The position numbers were made by a program, and so were the translations under genes. This document shows, piece by piece, positions 10,762 to 22,810 of a stretch of DNA of 32,706 nt; the stretch's first letter is position 1, and each line of letters starts with the position of its first letter. This stretch comes from SAR324 cluster bacterium (GTDB lineage: Bacteria; SAR324; JACQKK01). The DNA is taken from the NCBI GenBank assembly GCA_022573975.1, contig JACZSY010000013.1:1-32706 (forward strand). Reading direction: 5' to 3'. Under the pieces are notes generated by a model. That model made no database searches. It saw nothing but the letters and a program-made list of their open reading frames with translations, and had not been told where the DNA came from.

Positions 10762-11868
10762 ATGCGCGAACCGATACCCGGCCCGGGTTCCATCCGGGAC
10801 ACCGCCGCTCAGACAGCCGAATCCGTCTCAACCGCCTGTCCCCCCGACTATTATTACGGCCCCGCCGCCCTGAACCGCCCGCCGGACCTTTCGGCCGAGA
10901 CGCTCTATGTGATTGGCGGGCTGTACGGCAACCCGGAGGCCCTGGCCGCGGTGCTGGCCATGAAGGATCGCGAGGATCGCGCCGGTGCCACGGAGGGTGC
11001 CCAGATGCGCCCCCCGGTGCGATTGGTCTTCAACGGCGATTTCAACTGGTTCAACGTGGACGCGGAGAGCTTCCGGGCAATCAACGCGGCCGTGCTGGAG
11101 CATGTGGCCATTCAGGGCAACGTGGAGGCCGAACTGGCCCGCGAGGGCGCGGCGCTGGACTGCGGCTGCAACTACCCGCCCTATGTGGACCCTGGCACCG
11201 TGGAACGCTCGAACCGCATTTTCGCGCGGCTGAAGGAAACCGCGTCTCATTCTCCCGGCATCGCCTCCCGGCTGGGCGGGATGCCCAAGACCCTGGTGGC
11301 GCGGGTGGGCGCGCACCGGATAGCCATCGTCCATGGCGACCCCGAGGCCCTCTCCGGCTGGCGGCTGGCGGAAGAGGCGCTGAGCGGACCGAACGCCAAG
11401 GAGGACGCTCCACCGGGCGTGCCCCAGACCGGAGAGGAGCGCATCGCGGAATACTTTCGCGCCGCCGGCGTTTCGGCGTTCGCGGCCACCCATACCTGCC
11501 TGCCCTTCGCCCGGGATTTCATGGTGGACGGCATGGCCAGGCTGATCGTCAACAACGGGGCGGCGGGGATGCCCAACTTCCGGGGCGTTGCGGGCGGGCT
11601 GTTGACGCGCATTTCGGTGCATCCGGCCCTTCCCGGCGAAAGCCTCTACGGATGGGCCAGGGATGGGGTGCATTATGACGCCCTTCCCATCGTCTACGAT
11701 CAGGAACGTTGGATGGAGCGGTTCCTGGCCAACTGGCCGGAGGGCACTCCGGCCCATCGCTCCTATTTCGAGCGGTTGACCAAAGGGCCGGCCTACACCC
11801 TGGAACAAGCCATTCGCGGGGAGGTGCGGCGCAAGGCGGCTGGGGGCGGCCCCCGCCGCACCGCTTAG
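10762..11868 (+). CDS. Calcineurin-fold metallophosphatase-like protein with altered metal motif
   Basis: A 368-residue protein of a proteobacterial family related to YfcE/ApaH-like phosphoesterases. Motifs visible in order: GGLYGN (52-57) where the first metal motif D-x-H-G-N is expected, NGDFNWF (91-97), QGN (118-120), HGD (191-193) and ATHT (242-245). The second to fifth motifs look intact, but the Asp and His of motif I are replaced by Gly and Tyr, so one metal site should be weakened or lost. 'NNGAAGMPNFRG' and 'YGWARDGVHYDALP' are also family-like. It starts 32 bp after the dehydrogenase stop with AGG eight bases upstream, so the two may be cotranscribed. Substrate unknown. Confidence 0.8.
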   Translation: MREPIPGPGSIRDTAAQTAESVSTACPPDYYYGPAALNRPPDLSAETLYVIGGLYGNPEALAAVLAMKDREDRAGATEGAQMRPPVRLVFNGDFNWFNVDAESFRAINAAVLEHVAIQGNVEAELAREGAALDCGCNYPPYVDPGTVERSNRIFARLKETASHSPGIASRLGGMPKTLVARVGAHRIAIVHGDPEALSGWRLAEEALSGPNAKEDAPPGVPQTGEERIAEYFRAAGVSAFAATHTCLPFARDFMVDGMARLIVNNGAAGMPNFRGVAGGLLTRISVHPALPGESLYGWARDGVHYDALPIVYDQERWMERFLANWPEGTPAHRSYFERLTKGPAYTLEQAIRGEVRRKAAGGGPRRTA

Positions 11869-12523: not shown

Positions 12524-12907
12524 TCACTCCGGCAGACCGGCGGCGCGCGGGCGGTCCCTGTAACCTTCCAGGATAGAGGCGTCCCGGAAAGGTTGGGTTT
12601 TGGCAAACTGGGCAACGGAAAAATCCGGGTCGCGCTCCAGCAGTTCTTGCGCGGCCTTTTGGGCCTCTTTCTTCCCCTCAACCGCCTTGCTCCCGTCGGT
12701 CATCACAGTGACGGTGATCACCGCCTTCTCCCGGTTCGCGTAACTCGCTTTGTCCGTGGAGACGGTGACACTGAGAGTGGGTGTGGATGGCGGGATTCCC
12801 ACGGTGAGGCTGATGGAGGCGCTGCCGGATTTGCCGCCGGAACCGGTCACCTCTGCGGTGATCGTGTGGATGCCATCACTCAGCGTCCACTGTGGGCTGC
12901 ACCATCG
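12524..12907 (-). pseudogene. Chimeric fragment: Ig-like domain joined to a cyclase/TPR-like C-terminus
   Basis: An open frame with no proper start; it is cut by an in-frame TAG at 12908-12910. The first 75 residues read as the end of a bacterial Ig-like or PKD-type surface domain ('LSDGIHTITAEV', 'SGSASISLTVG') followed by 'TLSVTVSTDKASYAN...VTDG'. From about position 12676 the character changes to 'AQKAAQELLERDPDFSVAQF' followed by 'FAKTQPFRD' and an AGLPE terminus. That pattern is typical of the C-terminal end of class III adenylate cyclase/TPR proteins. I read it as two unrelated gene remnants joined in frame. No ribosome-binding site or promoter is visible. Confidence 0.6.
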
Positions 12908-13104: not shown

Positions 13105-13290
13105 CTATCGGGTTTTCGCTAGGGACAACCATTGGCGAATTGACTCGTAGGTGAGCCCTACTCCTCGCGCGGCAAGCAATTCTTCTATGTCGCGGAAGCT
13201 CAGACTGAACCGGTAGTAGAGCCAGACGGTATGGGAATTGATCTCAATCGGGTATCGGTGCCCCGCATACGGTGACTTTTTTGCTTTCAT
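13105..13290 (-). pseudogene. IS6-family transposase, N-terminal remnant
   Basis: The first 54 residues match the N-terminus of IS6/IS240-type transposases: 'SPYAGHRYPIEI', 'TVWLYYRFSLSFRDIEELL' and 'LTYESIRQW', which is the helix-turn-helix region. The full enzyme is about 230 residues with a DDE domain; here homology stops near 13129 and is followed by seven unrelated codons and a stop, so the catalytic domain is gone. Upstream, the reverse complement of 13331-13352 (GGTACTGTCAAGTTAGCAG...) looks like the outer terminal repeat, placing one IS end near 13352. The missing other end shows the IS was truncated by a later rearrangement. Confidence 0.85.
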
Positions 13291-13534: not shown

Positions 13535-14107
13535 GTGAAAAGCACACACTTGGGAGGCGGAAGCGACGGCAGGAAAGCGACTGGCCTGAGCGCATGGCGA
13601 CGCTGGCGGCGGGCTGCGTGGGTGGTCGCCCTTGTGCTGTGCGCCGCCGCGCCCAGCGGAGCGTTCGCGCTAGAAAAACAAATCATGGGGTGGGTGGAAC
13701 GGGTCGAATTGCACCCCGGCCGGCTGATGCTCCACGCAAAACTCGATTCCGGGGCGCTGAATTCCTCTCTGCACGCCGTTGACCCTAAGTTCTTCAAGCG
13801 GGCAGGAGTGCGCTGGGTGCGCTTTACCGTGACCAACCGGGAGGGCGAGTTCGTGACTTTCGAGCGGCCAATCGTGCGCATGGCGAGGATCAAGCGCCTT
13901 GGCGGCTCGGTGAGGATCCGTCCGGTGATTAAGTTGGGCATCTGTGTGGGCCGGGTCTACCGGTATGTGCAAGTGAATCTGGAAGACCGCACCCGGTTCA
14001 ACTACAAGCTCCTGATCGGCCGCACGTTCATGGCCGGTCATACCGTCGTCGACCCTTCGGTGCAGTACACCGCCGAGCCAAAATGCGGTGAGGGGGTAAT
14101 GCAATGA
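13535..14107 (+). CDS. Secreted retropepsin-like protease of the RimK-associated family (PF05618, 'ATP-dependent zinc protease')
   Basis: A 190-residue protein with a GTG start supported by AGGAG six bases upstream. The N-terminus has Arg-rich charge followed by a hydrophobic core (about 27-46), so it is exported or anchored. The domain begins 'GWVERVELHPGRLMLHAKLDSGALNSSLHA'-like; DSGA at 71-74 matches the DTGA-type aspartyl-protease motif of the family, with Asp71 as the expected catalytic residue. Despite its common name, zinc or ATP dependence is not evident from sequence. Homologues sit beside ATP-grasp ligases and are thought to process peptide-like products. Its stop overlaps the next start by 4 nt (ATGA), indicating translational coupling. 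Confidence 0.88.
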   Translation: MKSTHLGGGSDGRKATGLSAWRRWRRAAWVVALVLCAAAPSGAFALEKQIMGWVERVELHPGRLMLHAKLDSGALNSSLHAVDPKFFKRAGVRWVRFTVTNREGEFVTFERPIVRMARIKRLGGSVRIRPVIKLGICVGRVYRYVQVNLEDRTRFNYKLLIGRTFMAGHTVVDPSVQYTAEPKCGEGVMQ

Positions 14108-15633
14108 ACAACCGCCATCTCTTCGTGCTGGTCACCGCGCTGACGCTGGCCGGTCTGTCTTTCTTCCTCTACAAAGTATTGATCCTTGAAGTGCCCGTGA
14201 CGCCCGACGCGACGTTGATGCAATGGAACGTGGAAGCCCGCATCAACTTCCAAGGGGTAGGCGACCCGATCAAAGTGGACATGTTCATGCCCCAGAGCCG
14301 TCACCGCTACCCGGTGTTGGACTTCAGTTTCATTTCCCGCGATTACGGGCTCACCAGCGGAAACCGCGACGGCCAGCGGCTCGCGGTGTGGTCGATCCAG
14401 GCTGCACGCGGGCCGCAGACGCTCTACTTCCGATGCCGCATCCGGGACCTTGGCGCACGGTATGTGGAGCCCGGTCCGCCGCCCACCGGCGTGCAGCCCG
14501 TGACCCTGGAAGGACTCGAATTCGAAGCGGCCCAGGCCCACCTGGCGCGCATACGGGCGCGCTCGGCCGACACCGAAACGCTGACCGCACTGCTGCTGAA
14601 GAGCTTCAACAAAACGCCACTTCCGGCAAACCTCGCCCCCCTGTTGGGGCCAAGGCCGACCATAGCCCAAAAGCTGGAGTTGGCGCTCAACCTGTTGGCG
14701 CTGGCCCGGGTGCCCGCGCGCGTCGTGCACGGCGTGGAGCTGGTGGAACAGCGCCGCAGAGCACCTCTGATCAGTTGGCTGGAAGTGTGGAAGAACCCCG
14801 GCTGGGTGGCGTTCAACCCCAAGACGGGCCGGGCCGGGCTGCCCCGCACGTTCATGCCCTGGTATTTCGGCCCGAATCCCATGGTGAAACTGAGCGGCGG
14901 CCACGATCTGGAAGTGAACATCTCGGTGTTGAAGATCCACACCCTGGCCATCACGCAAGCCGGCGACCTGGGGCAGGCCGCCCAGGTTCTGGCGCTCCGT
15001 TTCTCCCTGTTCAGCCTCCCCATCGATTCGCAACTGGTGTACCGGATTCTGCTGTTGGTGCCGGTGGGGGCATTTCTGCTGGTGTTGCTGCGAAACGTAG
15101 TCGGCCTCAAGACCTTCGGAACCTTCATGCCGGTGTTGATCGCGCTGTCGTTTCGCGAAACCAATCTCGGCCGCGGGCTGCTGCTGTTCATCCTGATCGT
15201 GGCGCTGGGGCTGGCGGTGCGGTTCTACCTGGAGCGGCTCAAGCTGCTGATGGTGCCGCGGCTGGCCGCCGTGCTGACCGTGGTGGTGCTGCTGATGGCC
15301 GCATTGAGCATATTGGGGCATCAACTCGGACTGGAGGCCGGGCTTTCGGTGGCGCTGTTTCCCATGGTCGTTCTCACCATGACCATCGAGCGCATGTCGG
15401 TGCTGTGGGACGAGCGCGGCCCTGCCGAAGCCCTCAAGCAAGGTGTGGGCAGCCTCCTGGCCGCGGTGATCGCCTTTGTGGCCATGGTCAACAGTTACCT
15501 GGAGCACCTGGTGTTCACCTTTCCCGAACTGCTGCTGGTGCTGCTTGCCGCCACGCTCTTGCTGGGGCGATACACCGGCTACCGGCTGTTCGAGCTGCCG
15601 CGATTCCGGGCCCTGGCCAGGAAGGATGCCTGA
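14104..15633 (+). CDS. Inactive transglutaminase fused to 7TM domain (UUP1-like membrane protein)
   Basis: A 509-residue membrane protein. An N-terminal signal anchor (about 5-25) precedes a long extracytoplasmic region. This contains a transglutaminase-like fold at about 155-290 ('LARVPARVVHGVELVEQ', 'LISWLEVWKNPGWVAFNP'); the position where active enzymes carry the nucleophilic Cys shows no Cys, fitting the 'inactive transglutaminase' family (PF14400). Roughly residues 310-500 hold about seven hydrophobic helices (PF14402). Genes of this type always travel with an ATP-grasp ligase and the RimK-type protease, as here. The fold may bind a peptide rather than cut it (inference). The stop overlaps the next start by one base (TGATG). 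Confidence 0.9.
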   Translation: MNNRHLFVLVTALTLAGLSFFLYKVLILEVPVTPDATLMQWNVEARINFQGVGDPIKVDMFMPQSRHRYPVLDFSFISRDYGLTSGNRDGQRLAVWSIQAARGPQTLYFRCRIRDLGARYVEPGPPPTGVQPVTLEGLEFEAAQAHLARIRARSADTETLTALLLKSFNKTPLPANLAPLLGPRPTIAQKLELALNLLALARVPARVVHGVELVEQRRRAPLISWLEVWKNPGWVAFNPKTGRAGLPRTFMPWYFGPNPMVKLSGGHDLEVNISVLKIHTLAITQAGDLGQAAQVLALRFSLFSLPIDSQLVYRILLLVPVGAFLLVLLRNVVGLKTFGTFMPVLIALSFRETNLGRGLLLFILIVALGLAVRFYLERLKLLMVPRLAAVLTVVVLLMAALSILGHQLGLEAGLSVALFPMVVLTMTIERMSVLWDERGPAEALKQGVGSLLAAVIAFVAMVNSYLEHLVFTFPELLLVLLAATLLLGRYTGYRLFELPRFRALARKDA

Positions 15634-16607
15634 TGCTGGGCCTCATTCGCCGCCTGTCGCGGGTTGGCCTTTTGGGCATCAACCAGCGCAACGCCGACTA
15701 CATCCTGCCCCGCAACGACCGGGCCAAGTATCCAATGGTGGACGACAAATTGCTCACCAAGCAGTTGGCCGAGCGGCACGGGCTCAGTGTCCCGCCGCTG
15801 TACGGGATGGTGGAGATCTACCGGCAGGTGCGCGATGTGCACAAGCTGCTGGAACAACACGAGGATTTCGTGGTCAAGCCCGCCCACGGCAGCCAGGGGC
15901 ATGGCATCGTGGTAGTGACCGGCCGCGTCGGCACGGGATACCGCCGGGCCAACGGGAGCCTGCTCACGCCGGAGGACATGGGCCACCACATCTCCAATAT
16001 CCTCAGCGGAATCTACAGCCTGGGCGGGCAGCCGGACCAGGCCCTGATCGAATACCGGGTACAGTTCGACCCTGTGTTCGAGAAAATCACCTACCTGGGT
16101 GTGCCCGACGTGCGCATCATCGTCCTCCTCGGTGTCCCGGTGATGGCCATGGTGCGGCTGCCCACTCGGATGTCCGACGGCAAGGCTAACCTCCACCAGG
16201 GCGCCCTCGGCGCCGGTATTGATATGGCCACTGGCCGCACGCTCACCGCCGTCTGGCGCGACAGAATTGTCGAGGAACATCCCGACACCGGTAATAGGGT
16301 GTCCGGTGTGGAAATTCCGCACTGGGGCACAATGCTAGATATTGCGGCACGGACCTACGACATGACCGGGTTGGGATACCAGGGAGTGGACCTGGTGCTG
16401 GACAGCGCGCGCGGACCGCTGATCCTGGAGATCAACGCCCGGCCGGGACTGAACATCCAGATTGCCAACCGTGTCGGCCTGCGCCCCCGCCTGGAACTGG
16501 CGGAGCGCCACTTGGCGCAATTGACCACCGTTGCGGATCGAGTCGCCTTCGCCCGCCTGCATTTTGGCGTCGACACGCCGGCGCCGCGCACTTCCACGAA
16601 GATCTAA
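15633..16607 (+). CDS. ATP-grasp 'alpha-L-glutamate ligase-like' protein
   Basis: A 324-residue ATP-grasp enzyme of the sugar-transfer/RimK-like branch (PF14397). ATP-grasp enzymes form amide or thioester bonds through an acyl-phosphate. Seen: 'INQRNADYILPRNDRAKYP' at the N-terminus, the nucleotide-binding loop 'FVVKPAHGSQGHGIVVV' (Lys82, Gly-rich loop 86-91), a conserved 'DVRIIVLLGVPVMAMVRLPT' strand, and metal ligands in 'LEINARPGLNIQ' (Glu266, Asn268). No signal peptide, so it is cytoplasmic, while its two partners face the periplasm or membrane. The substrate is unknown; a peptide or amino-acid ligation is inferred from the family and the protease partner. GGA lies close upstream of the ATG. 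Confidence 0.92.
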   Translation: MLGLIRRLSRVGLLGINQRNADYILPRNDRAKYPMVDDKLLTKQLAERHGLSVPPLYGMVEIYRQVRDVHKLLEQHEDFVVKPAHGSQGHGIVVVTGRVGTGYRRANGSLLTPEDMGHHISNILSGIYSLGGQPDQALIEYRVQFDPVFEKITYLGVPDVRIIVLLGVPVMAMVRLPTRMSDGKANLHQGALGAGIDMATGRTLTAVWRDRIVEEHPDTGNRVSGVEIPHWGTMLDIAARTYDMTGLGYQGVDLVLDSARGPLILEINARPGLNIQIANRVGLRPRLELAERHLAQLTTVADRVAFARLHFGVDTPAPRTSTKI

Positions 16608-16993
16608 TCCACGAGCGCGGTTAGTGTTCCTCGGGTGAGAGGCATGCCGTTGTAGCGGGCGAATATTCCATCCAAACCGCACCGCGCTGCCGCTTGGTGG
16701 GCATCCGCATCGACCTGAACGTCCAGCAGGCAGCGTGCGGCGGCAGAGTCCACCGTGGTGTCCATTGTCTCGCCTGCCAGAGTGCCCCGAGCGGGGACCC
16801 GCATCAACGTCGCGCAGCCCGCCACGAGCGGCACCATAAAGGCAAGCACTATCGTTGCGGACGGAGGTTGGGGTGCTCTGTGACCACAGCCCGGCACCCC
16901 TGGGCCCAGGAGCGTCGGCGCGAATTCGCCATTGATGGCCCTGTCCAGTTTGACCGGCAAGCGAGGTGCCGGTTCGTATGCGCTTTTTTTCAC
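16604..16993 (-). pseudogene. Truncated lipoprotein, probably the N-terminal part of a larger protein
   Basis: A frame beginning at GTG 16993 with GGGAGG five to six bases upstream encodes 129 residues. Inside it lies a clear lipoprotein signal (hydrophobic 'IVLAFMVPLVAGC' then ATL), so the working start may be the ATG near 16836. Another possibility is that the first 50 residues are a frameshifted leader. The mature part ends abruptly after 'GMPLTRGTLTALVD'. Its TAG overlaps the TAA of the convergent ATP-grasp gene, which suggests the gene was cut where the operon was joined to it. I do not recognise the family with certainty; resemblance to the start of a lipoprotein hydrolase is only an impression. 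Confidence 0.45.
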
Positions 16994-21279: not shown

Positions 21280-21469
21280 TTGAACGCTCCCGTTAAAATG
21301 CCCTGCATATGATAAGGAGGATTTGAGGCAATGGGAAGATCGGGGCGGCGCTCCCGGGGGAGGGATTGGACATGGCTCACCCTTCCCGATACATAAAGGA
21401 ACAGCGGGATACAACCCTTCGGTGGGTTGCCGGCGGCCCGCCACACGGATAGTGAAGAGGAAAACGGCA

Positions 21470-22810
21470 ATGAATATCCGGGTTTCGCATCGATTTCGGG
21501 GACATTCGATCCAGGCCCTGGCCTGCATCACGCTCATATTTCTGCTGTTGGCTCCTGGCGCCTCTCTGGCCAATCCCCGCCAGCAACTGGCGGAAAAGGG
21601 ATACGCTTTCACCAGCACCGGTTTTGTGAAAAGCGCGGAAAACGGAGACCTGACCGCGGTTGAATTGTTCATTGACGCCGGCATGGGAGTCAACTCGGTC
21701 AGCAACACCAGGGAGACCGCGCTGTTCAAGGCCGATGAAGCCGGGCAGGTCAAGGTGGTCGCCTATCTGCTTGGCCTGGGCGCCAAATCCAGGGACGGTG
21801 AATTTATCGCGGTCACCTTCCTCACCGCCCTGGAGTCGGGCAATACCCGGTTGGAAAATTTTCTCTACACCCATGGCATGAACCGGGATTATGCCCTGAC
21901 ACTGGTCGCCGAACTCAATATGACCAAAGAGGCCATGCGGCTGATGCGGCGAGGAGCCAATCCATTCTCCAAACTCGGACGAAGCGCCCTGGTCTTCGCG
22001 GCCGAACAGGAAAACCTGAAATTGATCCGGTTCATGTTGGAACGGGCCGTTCCAAAGGACCGCGCGGGCGTGTTGAACCCTCCACTGGTGGCGGCCGCCA
22101 GCCTGGGCAATGTGGAGTTGGCCCTGTATTTGATCAACAAAGGGGCGGACGCCAATGATTCGCAGGCCGGAGCGCTGCTCAACGGACCGCCGGCGCTGGG
22201 CGAGGCGGCCGCGGCAGGCAACGCCCGAATGGTGGCGTTCCTGCTCAAACACGGCGCCGACCCGAACATGCGTTGGGAGGTGGAGGACAATAGCGGTACG
22301 CCGTTGATTTTCGCCGCGCGGGAAGGACAAATCAATGTGGTGCGCCTGCTGCTGGACAAGGGCGCGAGGGCAAGGGAGCGGGTAAACACCGTCGATGGGA
22401 AGCAAAGCGCCCTTTCCGTGGCCGAGACCATCGGACATCGGAAAGTGGTGGCGTTGCTCCGCAAGTCCGGAGCGGCAACGCCACGGCCCAGACCGCCACC
22501 CAAACCTCCCGCACCCAAACCTCCGCCCAGGCAGCCGGTGGCCCAAAACCTCCTGAATGGCCGGATCGACGCCCTCAAAAGCCTTCTCAATCGCGACGAT
22601 TTCCAAAAATTGAGCTTCGGCCAGTTGAGAGTCGTCCGCAACACCATTTTCGCCCAGTATGGTTATCCCTTCAAATCGTTCGATTTGCAGCAACACTTCG
22701 CCAAATTTTCCTGGTACCGGCCCGGTGACCGGAGCGTTGCGCTGAGCCGCCTCAATGCGACGGACCGAGAAAACATCGAGATGCTCAAGGCGATGGAAAA
22801 CGAGCGTTGA
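21470..22810 (+). CDS. Secreted ankyrin-repeat protein with C-terminal YARHG domain
   Basis: A 446-residue exported protein. A signal peptide covers residues 1-34 (ASLA before the probable cut). Residues about 45-340 form ankyrin repeats, for example 'NGDLTAVELFIDAGMGVN', 'AGNARMVAFLLKHGADPN' and 'EGQINVVRLLLDKGA'. A Pro-rich linker (about 342-362, alternating Pro/Lys/Arg) follows. The C-terminus (about 385-440) fits a YARHG domain: 'LRVVRNTIFAQYGYPF', 'FSWYRP' and 'LNATDRENIEML'. YARHG domains occur at the ends of extracytoplasmic proteins and probably bind peptidoglycan or another cell-surface ligand. The start has GAGG about eight bases upstream. It is divergent from tyrS. Confidence 0.88.
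   Translation: MNIRVSHRFRGHSIQALACITLIFLLLAPGASLANPRQQLAEKGYAFTSTGFVKSAENGDLTAVELFIDAGMGVNSVSNTRETALFKADEAGQVKVVAYLLGLGAKSRDGEFIAVTFLTALESGNTRLENFLYTHGMNRDYALTLVAELNMTKEAMRLMRRGANPFSKLGRSALVFAAEQENLKLIRFMLERAVPKDRAGVLNPPLVAAASLGNVELALYLINKGADANDSQAGALLNGPPALGEAAAAGNARMVAFLLKHGADPNMRWEVEDNSGTPLIFAAREGQINVVRLLLDKGARARERVNTVDGKQSALSVAETIGHRKVVALLRKSGAATPRPRPPPKPPAPKPPPRQPVAQNLLNGRIDALKSLLNRDDFQKLSFGQLRVVRNTIFAQYGYPFKSFDLQQHFAKFSWYRPGDRSVALSRLNATDRENIEMLKAMENER

Follow-up and report, generated by a model that had tools for sequence, protein, structure and literature searches.

The window (the whole 32,706-nucleotide stretch analyzed, from a SAR324 cluster bacterium) carries three overlapping genes for a protease, a membrane protein and an ATP-grasp ligase. 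What do these proteins do together, and how did their genes come to be in this genome? A first-pass annotation had proposed that they make, bind or move, and cut a product that is unknown for the class. The operon is a complete copy of rloABC, a system already known and not a new one. The rlo operon (retropepsin-like osmotic stress tolerance operon) was named in 2025 in Pseudomonas aeruginosa (PA14_41690, PA14_41710 and PA14_41730) and encodes a secreted retropepsin (RloA), a dead transglutaminase joined to seven helices (RloB) and a RimK-like ATP-grasp protein (RloC) (PMC12239564). P. aeruginosa RloA cuts polyglutamate in vitro, in runs of at least eight glutamates (PMC12239564). Mutants that lack all three RloA paralogues (rloA1-3) fail to grow in salt-free medium and die under hypo-osmotic conditions, and they are rescued when rloB or rloC is also lost (PMC12239564). 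We found in the literature neither a follow-up on RloABC beyond the 2025 papers nor a product of any rloABC member. The annotation's view of the product is partly right: the class has names and phenotypes, the glutamate-cutting activity of RloA, and an RloC whose fold is closest to that of the poly-alpha-glutamate ligase RimK.

The features of the operon and of the DNA upstream of it are as follows:

13129-13290, minus strand: N-terminal remnant of an IS6-family transposase, 54 codons (frame reading; its DNA is 71% identical to that of an annotated IS6 transposase across 133 bp)
13535-14107, plus strand: rloA, GTG start, 190 aa; retropepsin-like aspartic peptidase with catalytic Asp71 in a DSG motif (PF05618; aligns to PDB 9g58)
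13535-13669, plus strand: predicted signal peptide of RloA, with a basic stretch, the hydrophobic core AAWVVALVLCAAA and an AxA motif
14104-15633, plus strand: rloB, ATG start, 509 aa; membrane anchor, periplasmic dead transglutaminase domain and seven-helix membrane domain
14170-14877, plus strand: transglutaminase-like domain of RloB without Cys-His-Asp (PF14400; alignment of the triad columns)
14878-15615, plus strand: 7TM domain of RloB (PF14402 match)
15633-16607, plus strand: rloC, ATG start, 324 aa; ATP-grasp ligase with K82, E140, R161, N186, D253, E266 and N268 conserved (115 rows)

Reading of the sequence gave overlaps of 4 nt (ATGA) between rloA and rloB and of 1 nt (TGATG) between rloB and rloC, as first annotated. 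All three frames are open and intact, and 5 nt 5' of the rloA GTG there is an AGGAG ribosome-binding site. The window operon has the testable features of rloABC: the RloA-RloB-RloC order in a single operon, an RloA with an aspartic D-T/S-G motif and a signal peptide (export is a prediction), an RloB in which an inactive transglutaminase is fused to a 7TM domain, and an RloB that groups with the gammaproteobacterial rlo proteins. The exception is the NCBIfam models for RloA (99-111 bits against cut-offs of 210-280) and RloB (NF052267; 460 bits against 900), whose cut-offs fit close relatives only; they are a narrow criterion for naming and do not define rloABC. RloC exceeds the cut-off of its family model TIGR02291 (454 bits against 314).

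In a family search RloA matched Zn_protease (PF05618, E=7e-33), and its closest solved structures are 9g58, 9g59 and 2pma. The residue numbers of 9g58 and of P. aeruginosa RloA differ by a constant 20; on that basis, alignment mapping showed that K46, D48, R92, R114 and R137 of the P. aeruginosa protein are all kept in the window RloA; K46, R92, R114 and R137 are polyglutamate-contact positions. In the homologue alignment, the arginines R129 and R152, required by RloA for polyglutamate contact, are near-invariant (99%). The catalytic motif is DSG, as in 19 of 73 homologues, while 52 have DTG. Both residues singled out for mutation by the first annotation, Asp71 of RloA and Glu266 of RloC, are conserved catalytic positions (99% of 73 rows and 97% of 115 rows, respectively). 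At the place where other RloA proteins have their signal peptide, the window protein has a 12-residue hydropathy of 2.57, with a putative cleavage site at AFA/LEK; RimB has none there.

The window operon matches that of P. aeruginosa in gene order, domains, dead transglutaminase, RimK-like ATP-grasp ligase, and a secreted retropepsin whose catalytic and polyglutamate-contact residues are the same. It differs in its phylum and in having DSG instead of DTG. Most rlo carriers also have RimB-RimK (PMC12239564). P. aeruginosa has RimB-RimK and three RloA proteins, whereas the window genome has rloA as its single PF05618 gene and no RimK above the cut-off. RimB-RimK likewise pairs an aspartic protease with an ATP-grasp protein, of the same two folds, but RimB is cytoplasmic, has no signal peptide and comes without RloB, whereas the window RloA is predicted to be exported and is not a GWREW-start protease beside a RimK. 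Across the PF05618 proteins compared (L179-L210), the RimB type reads GWREW...LP.LG and lacks a signal peptide, and the RloA type reads GW[IVL]E and has one. Sorting by GWREW versus GW[IVL]E offers a simple annotation rule for this family.

RloB matched 7TM_transglut (PF14402, E=2e-100) and Transglut_i_TM (PF14400, E=2e-37). In the alignment it has I-I-N at the Cys-His-Asp triad columns, all non-catalytic residues, so the membrane protein does carry a dead transglutaminase domain, as had been annotated. The AlphaFold model of the window RloB is only fair (pLDDT 71.7, pTM 0.47); in this model and in that of a relative in which RloB and RloC are fused, the transglutaminase part resembles the cysteine-protease fold 3isr. 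A PDB structure search gave no match for the 7TM part.

RloC matched ATPgrasp_ST (PF14397, E=5e-91), and its sequence relatives in the PDB are RimK. For the ATP-grasp part of the fused relative (pLDDT 81.8, pTM 0.59), RimK was the top ATP-grasp structural match, and by this model RloC is more like RimK than like D-Ala-D-Ala ligase. Its activity is suggested by fold and residues; the substrate choice of an ATP-grasp enzyme cannot be read from sequence. Could RloB then be a signaling or sensing membrane protein whose dead domain senses cell-wall peptides, with RloC acting on another amine substrate, e.g., a peptidoglycan precursor? The cell-shape and beta-lactam-sensitivity phenotypes of rlo mutants (PMC12239564) would fit, but the resemblance of RloC to RimK over D-Ala-D-Ala ligase and the near-invariance of R129 and R152 of RloA argue against it, and we regard this explanation as quite unlikely.

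A survey of the neighbors of homologues had been suggested as a check, and it revealed two main operon types. We compared about 115 related loci, excluding short, weak or broken matches; RloB homologues and their flanks came from a scan of named genomes (39), plasmid records (2) and a gammaproteobacterial sample (about 80). Many of the loci are from fragmentary MAGs. The named-genome scan favors intact triads because its search patterns came from the active-site region, and the gammaproteobacterial sample is free of that bias. RloA was found in the flanks of none of 47 loci with an intact Cys-His-Asp triad in RloB, and in 20 of these 47 RloB and RloC form a single frame. Among the 71 dead-triad loci of the gammaproteobacterial sample, RloA was nearby in 67: directly upstream on the same strand in 60 and nearby on the opposite strand in 7, with none nearby in the remaining 4. 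Within that sample the association between triad state and RloA had a Fisher p of 2e-8, a value that ignores kinship. The seven loci with an opposite-strand RloA form a third, divergent group. Loci L155-L162 represent a deeply diverged third group of dead RloB homologues, mostly with an opposite-strand PF05618 gene and no same-strand RloC. At L031-L047, L051, L054 and L154, a single polypeptide of about 810-830 aa comprises both RloB and RloC, as is the case in many Gammaproteobacteria and Alphaproteobacteria.

The intact type (e.g., L018 in Ghiorsea, L051 in Thalassomonas and L024 in the window's own family) shares RloB and RloC homologues, often fused, with the window operon, but it has a catalytic triad where the window has I-I-N, lacks RloA, and continues with other genes. 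RloC is followed by a TPR protein of about 635 aa and then by an exported protein of about 400 aa (L018:12337-13515, L051:12249-13385, L150:8837-10075 and L014:10641-12020). The latter has a signal peptide, a strand-like pattern and, in 5 of 9 cases, a C-terminal phenylalanine; it had no match in Pfam or the PDB, and by its sequence looks like an outer-membrane beta-barrel. Among 36 intact-triad loci with sufficient sequence downstream, 34 had the TPR gene, the barrel-like gene or both; none of 44 dead-triad loci had either. The alginate and PGA exopolymer systems rely on TPR proteins and barrels; lyases in the periplasm, AlgL among them, guard against trapped polymer. The TPR and barrel-like genes of the intact type look like a route through the envelope.

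PF05618 was absent from 18 of 34 genomes with the intact type, and in the other 16 it was mostly of the cytoplasmic RimB kind or lay in a far longer open frame that is probably a RimB-RimK fusion. The secreted PF05618 proteins of G090 and G358 each adjoin their own dead-type RloB. Two Hyphomonadaceae with an intact triad (L197 and L198) have a secreted RloA elsewhere in the genome. For three main dead-type rloBC loci (G332, G224 and G177), no secreted RloA was found in the available genome sequence. Since the intact/dead split sits on a single branch of the RloB tree, it may reflect one or two evolutionary events rather than many that arose independently. We found no description of the split in the literature. 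An amidoligase survey by Iyer and colleagues (2009), cited by the rlo paper, reportedly contains an earlier prediction of such operons, and parts of the split may already be there.

What product would such a system handle? One possibility is that there is no free polymer, and that one or more envelope proteins receive glutamate tails from RloC, with RloB recruiting the target and RloA removing the tails. RimK and RimB add and remove glutamate on ribosomal protein S6 in this way (PMC12239564; PMC11957791), and RloA cuts glutamate-tailed RpsF (PMC12239564). However, tailing in the cytoplasm and trimming in the periplasm need an exported target, of which none is known, and the barrel-like and TPR genes of the intact type suggest bulk export. 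We consider protein tailing a rather doubtful explanation, though a better one than sensing.

We favor the reading that RloC makes an acidic chain, RloB passes or presents it and RloA trims it, in an operon acquired from a gammaproteobacterial line, and give it a probability of roughly 0.5. RloC, a cytoplasmic RimK-like ligase, would build an acidic amide-linked chain, most likely poly-alpha-glutamate. The RloB-RloC fusions and the 1-nt overlap of the two genes argue that these proteins act as one unit at the membrane, where RloB, coupled to RloC, would pass or present the chain to the periplasm and its dead transglutaminase domain would hold it there. RloA, exported by its signal peptide, would trim the chain, as the cleavage seen with P. 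aeruginosa RloA suggests. In the relatives without RloA, with their intact triad, TPR protein and beta-barrel-like protein, the same synthesis-and-transfer core appears as if feeding an export route. If RloA is lost, product should remain uncut in the periplasm, in line with the hypo-osmotic death of the rloA1-3 mutants and their rescue by loss of rloB or rloC. Synthesis, passage or presentation, and trimming would be the simplest account of the RloA activity, the genetics and the folds. The originally proposed logic of making, binding or moving, and cutting is supported in part, in that it fits the published rloABC genetics and biochemistry and the comparative evidence presented here.

How did the operon reach this genome? 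In our sample of the phylum (52 genomes: the window's and 51 others), dead-type RloB was absent from all 51 others; three of them have RloB relatives, all of which keep the triad and are 30-35% identical across the matching part. Of 369 evenly sampled Gammaproteobacteria, 81 had a match, the best at 54% identity, and the RloB tree places the window protein inside an eight-row set whose other seven members are gammaproteobacterial (support 100). The tetranucleotide distance of the operon from the host mean is at the 98th percentile among 56 host chunks, and it is the most atypical DNA on a contig that is mostly ordinary for the host. Based on the tree, the phylum survey and the composition, the operon was probably acquired horizontally, by gammaproteobacterial descent, into a genuine host contig. 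A contaminant contig is unlikely because the flanks fit the host composition and a relative in the same order shares 51% identity with the gene to the left of the operon (10762-11868). The rlo operon of Legionella adelaidensis (L062) has the same three genes in the same order, with an RloB 43% identical to that of the window; unlike the window operon, it is carried by a 54-kb replicon recorded as a plasmid and is annotated by family names alone.

Acquisition had been suggested at the outset, and the evidence above supports it; the IS6 remnant does not. The supposed IS6 end upstream is just the 54-codon transposase fragment, which has no proven terminus, and the window genome contains no full-length IS6 copy. 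IS6-driven transfer is therefore not supported, there being the remnant alone and no second full copy. The gene downstream of the operon (16604-16993, minus strand) had been called truncated, which was not borne out; it matched no family and no plasmid sequence. Elsewhere in the window, a short fragment at 12524-12850 (minus strand) reads as part of an Ig-like repeat surface protein and has no Pfam match, and an ankyrin-repeat protein with a C-terminal YARHG domain is encoded at 21323-22810 (plus strand). Could the transferred operon be a non-functional passenger, decaying beside an IS remnant? The remnant, the foreign composition and the lack of another dead-type copy in the phylum sample are compatible with this, but all three frames are open, with conserved catalytic residues, a ribosome-binding site and both overlaps retained. 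Moreover, since the closest relative found is just 54% identical, the intact frames would have stayed open through long divergence. We regard a decaying passenger as very improbable, the least probable of these explanations.

In P. aeruginosa the Rlo proteases are important for survival of osmotic stress, for biofilm and for antibiotic tolerance, and the two-type split suggests where to seek their substrate: an acidic chain in the periplasm. We tentatively propose, while thinking it more probably wrong than right, that RloB-RloC forms the heart of a machine that synthesizes and transfers a poly-amino acid and that exists in two forms: one sends the chain out across the envelope (active transglutaminase domain, TPR scaffold and outer-membrane barrel), and in the other (the window and P. 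aeruginosa) the chain remains in the periplasm as a charged osmotic polymer trimmed by RloA. The split leads to the prediction that one step is shared: the transglutaminase domain would perform it in one type and the retropepsin in the other. The intact type represents a second operon type, and its naturally fused RloB-RloC would be useful for biochemistry. The presence of a horizontally transferred copy in a distant phylum suggests that these three genes suffice for a useful function.
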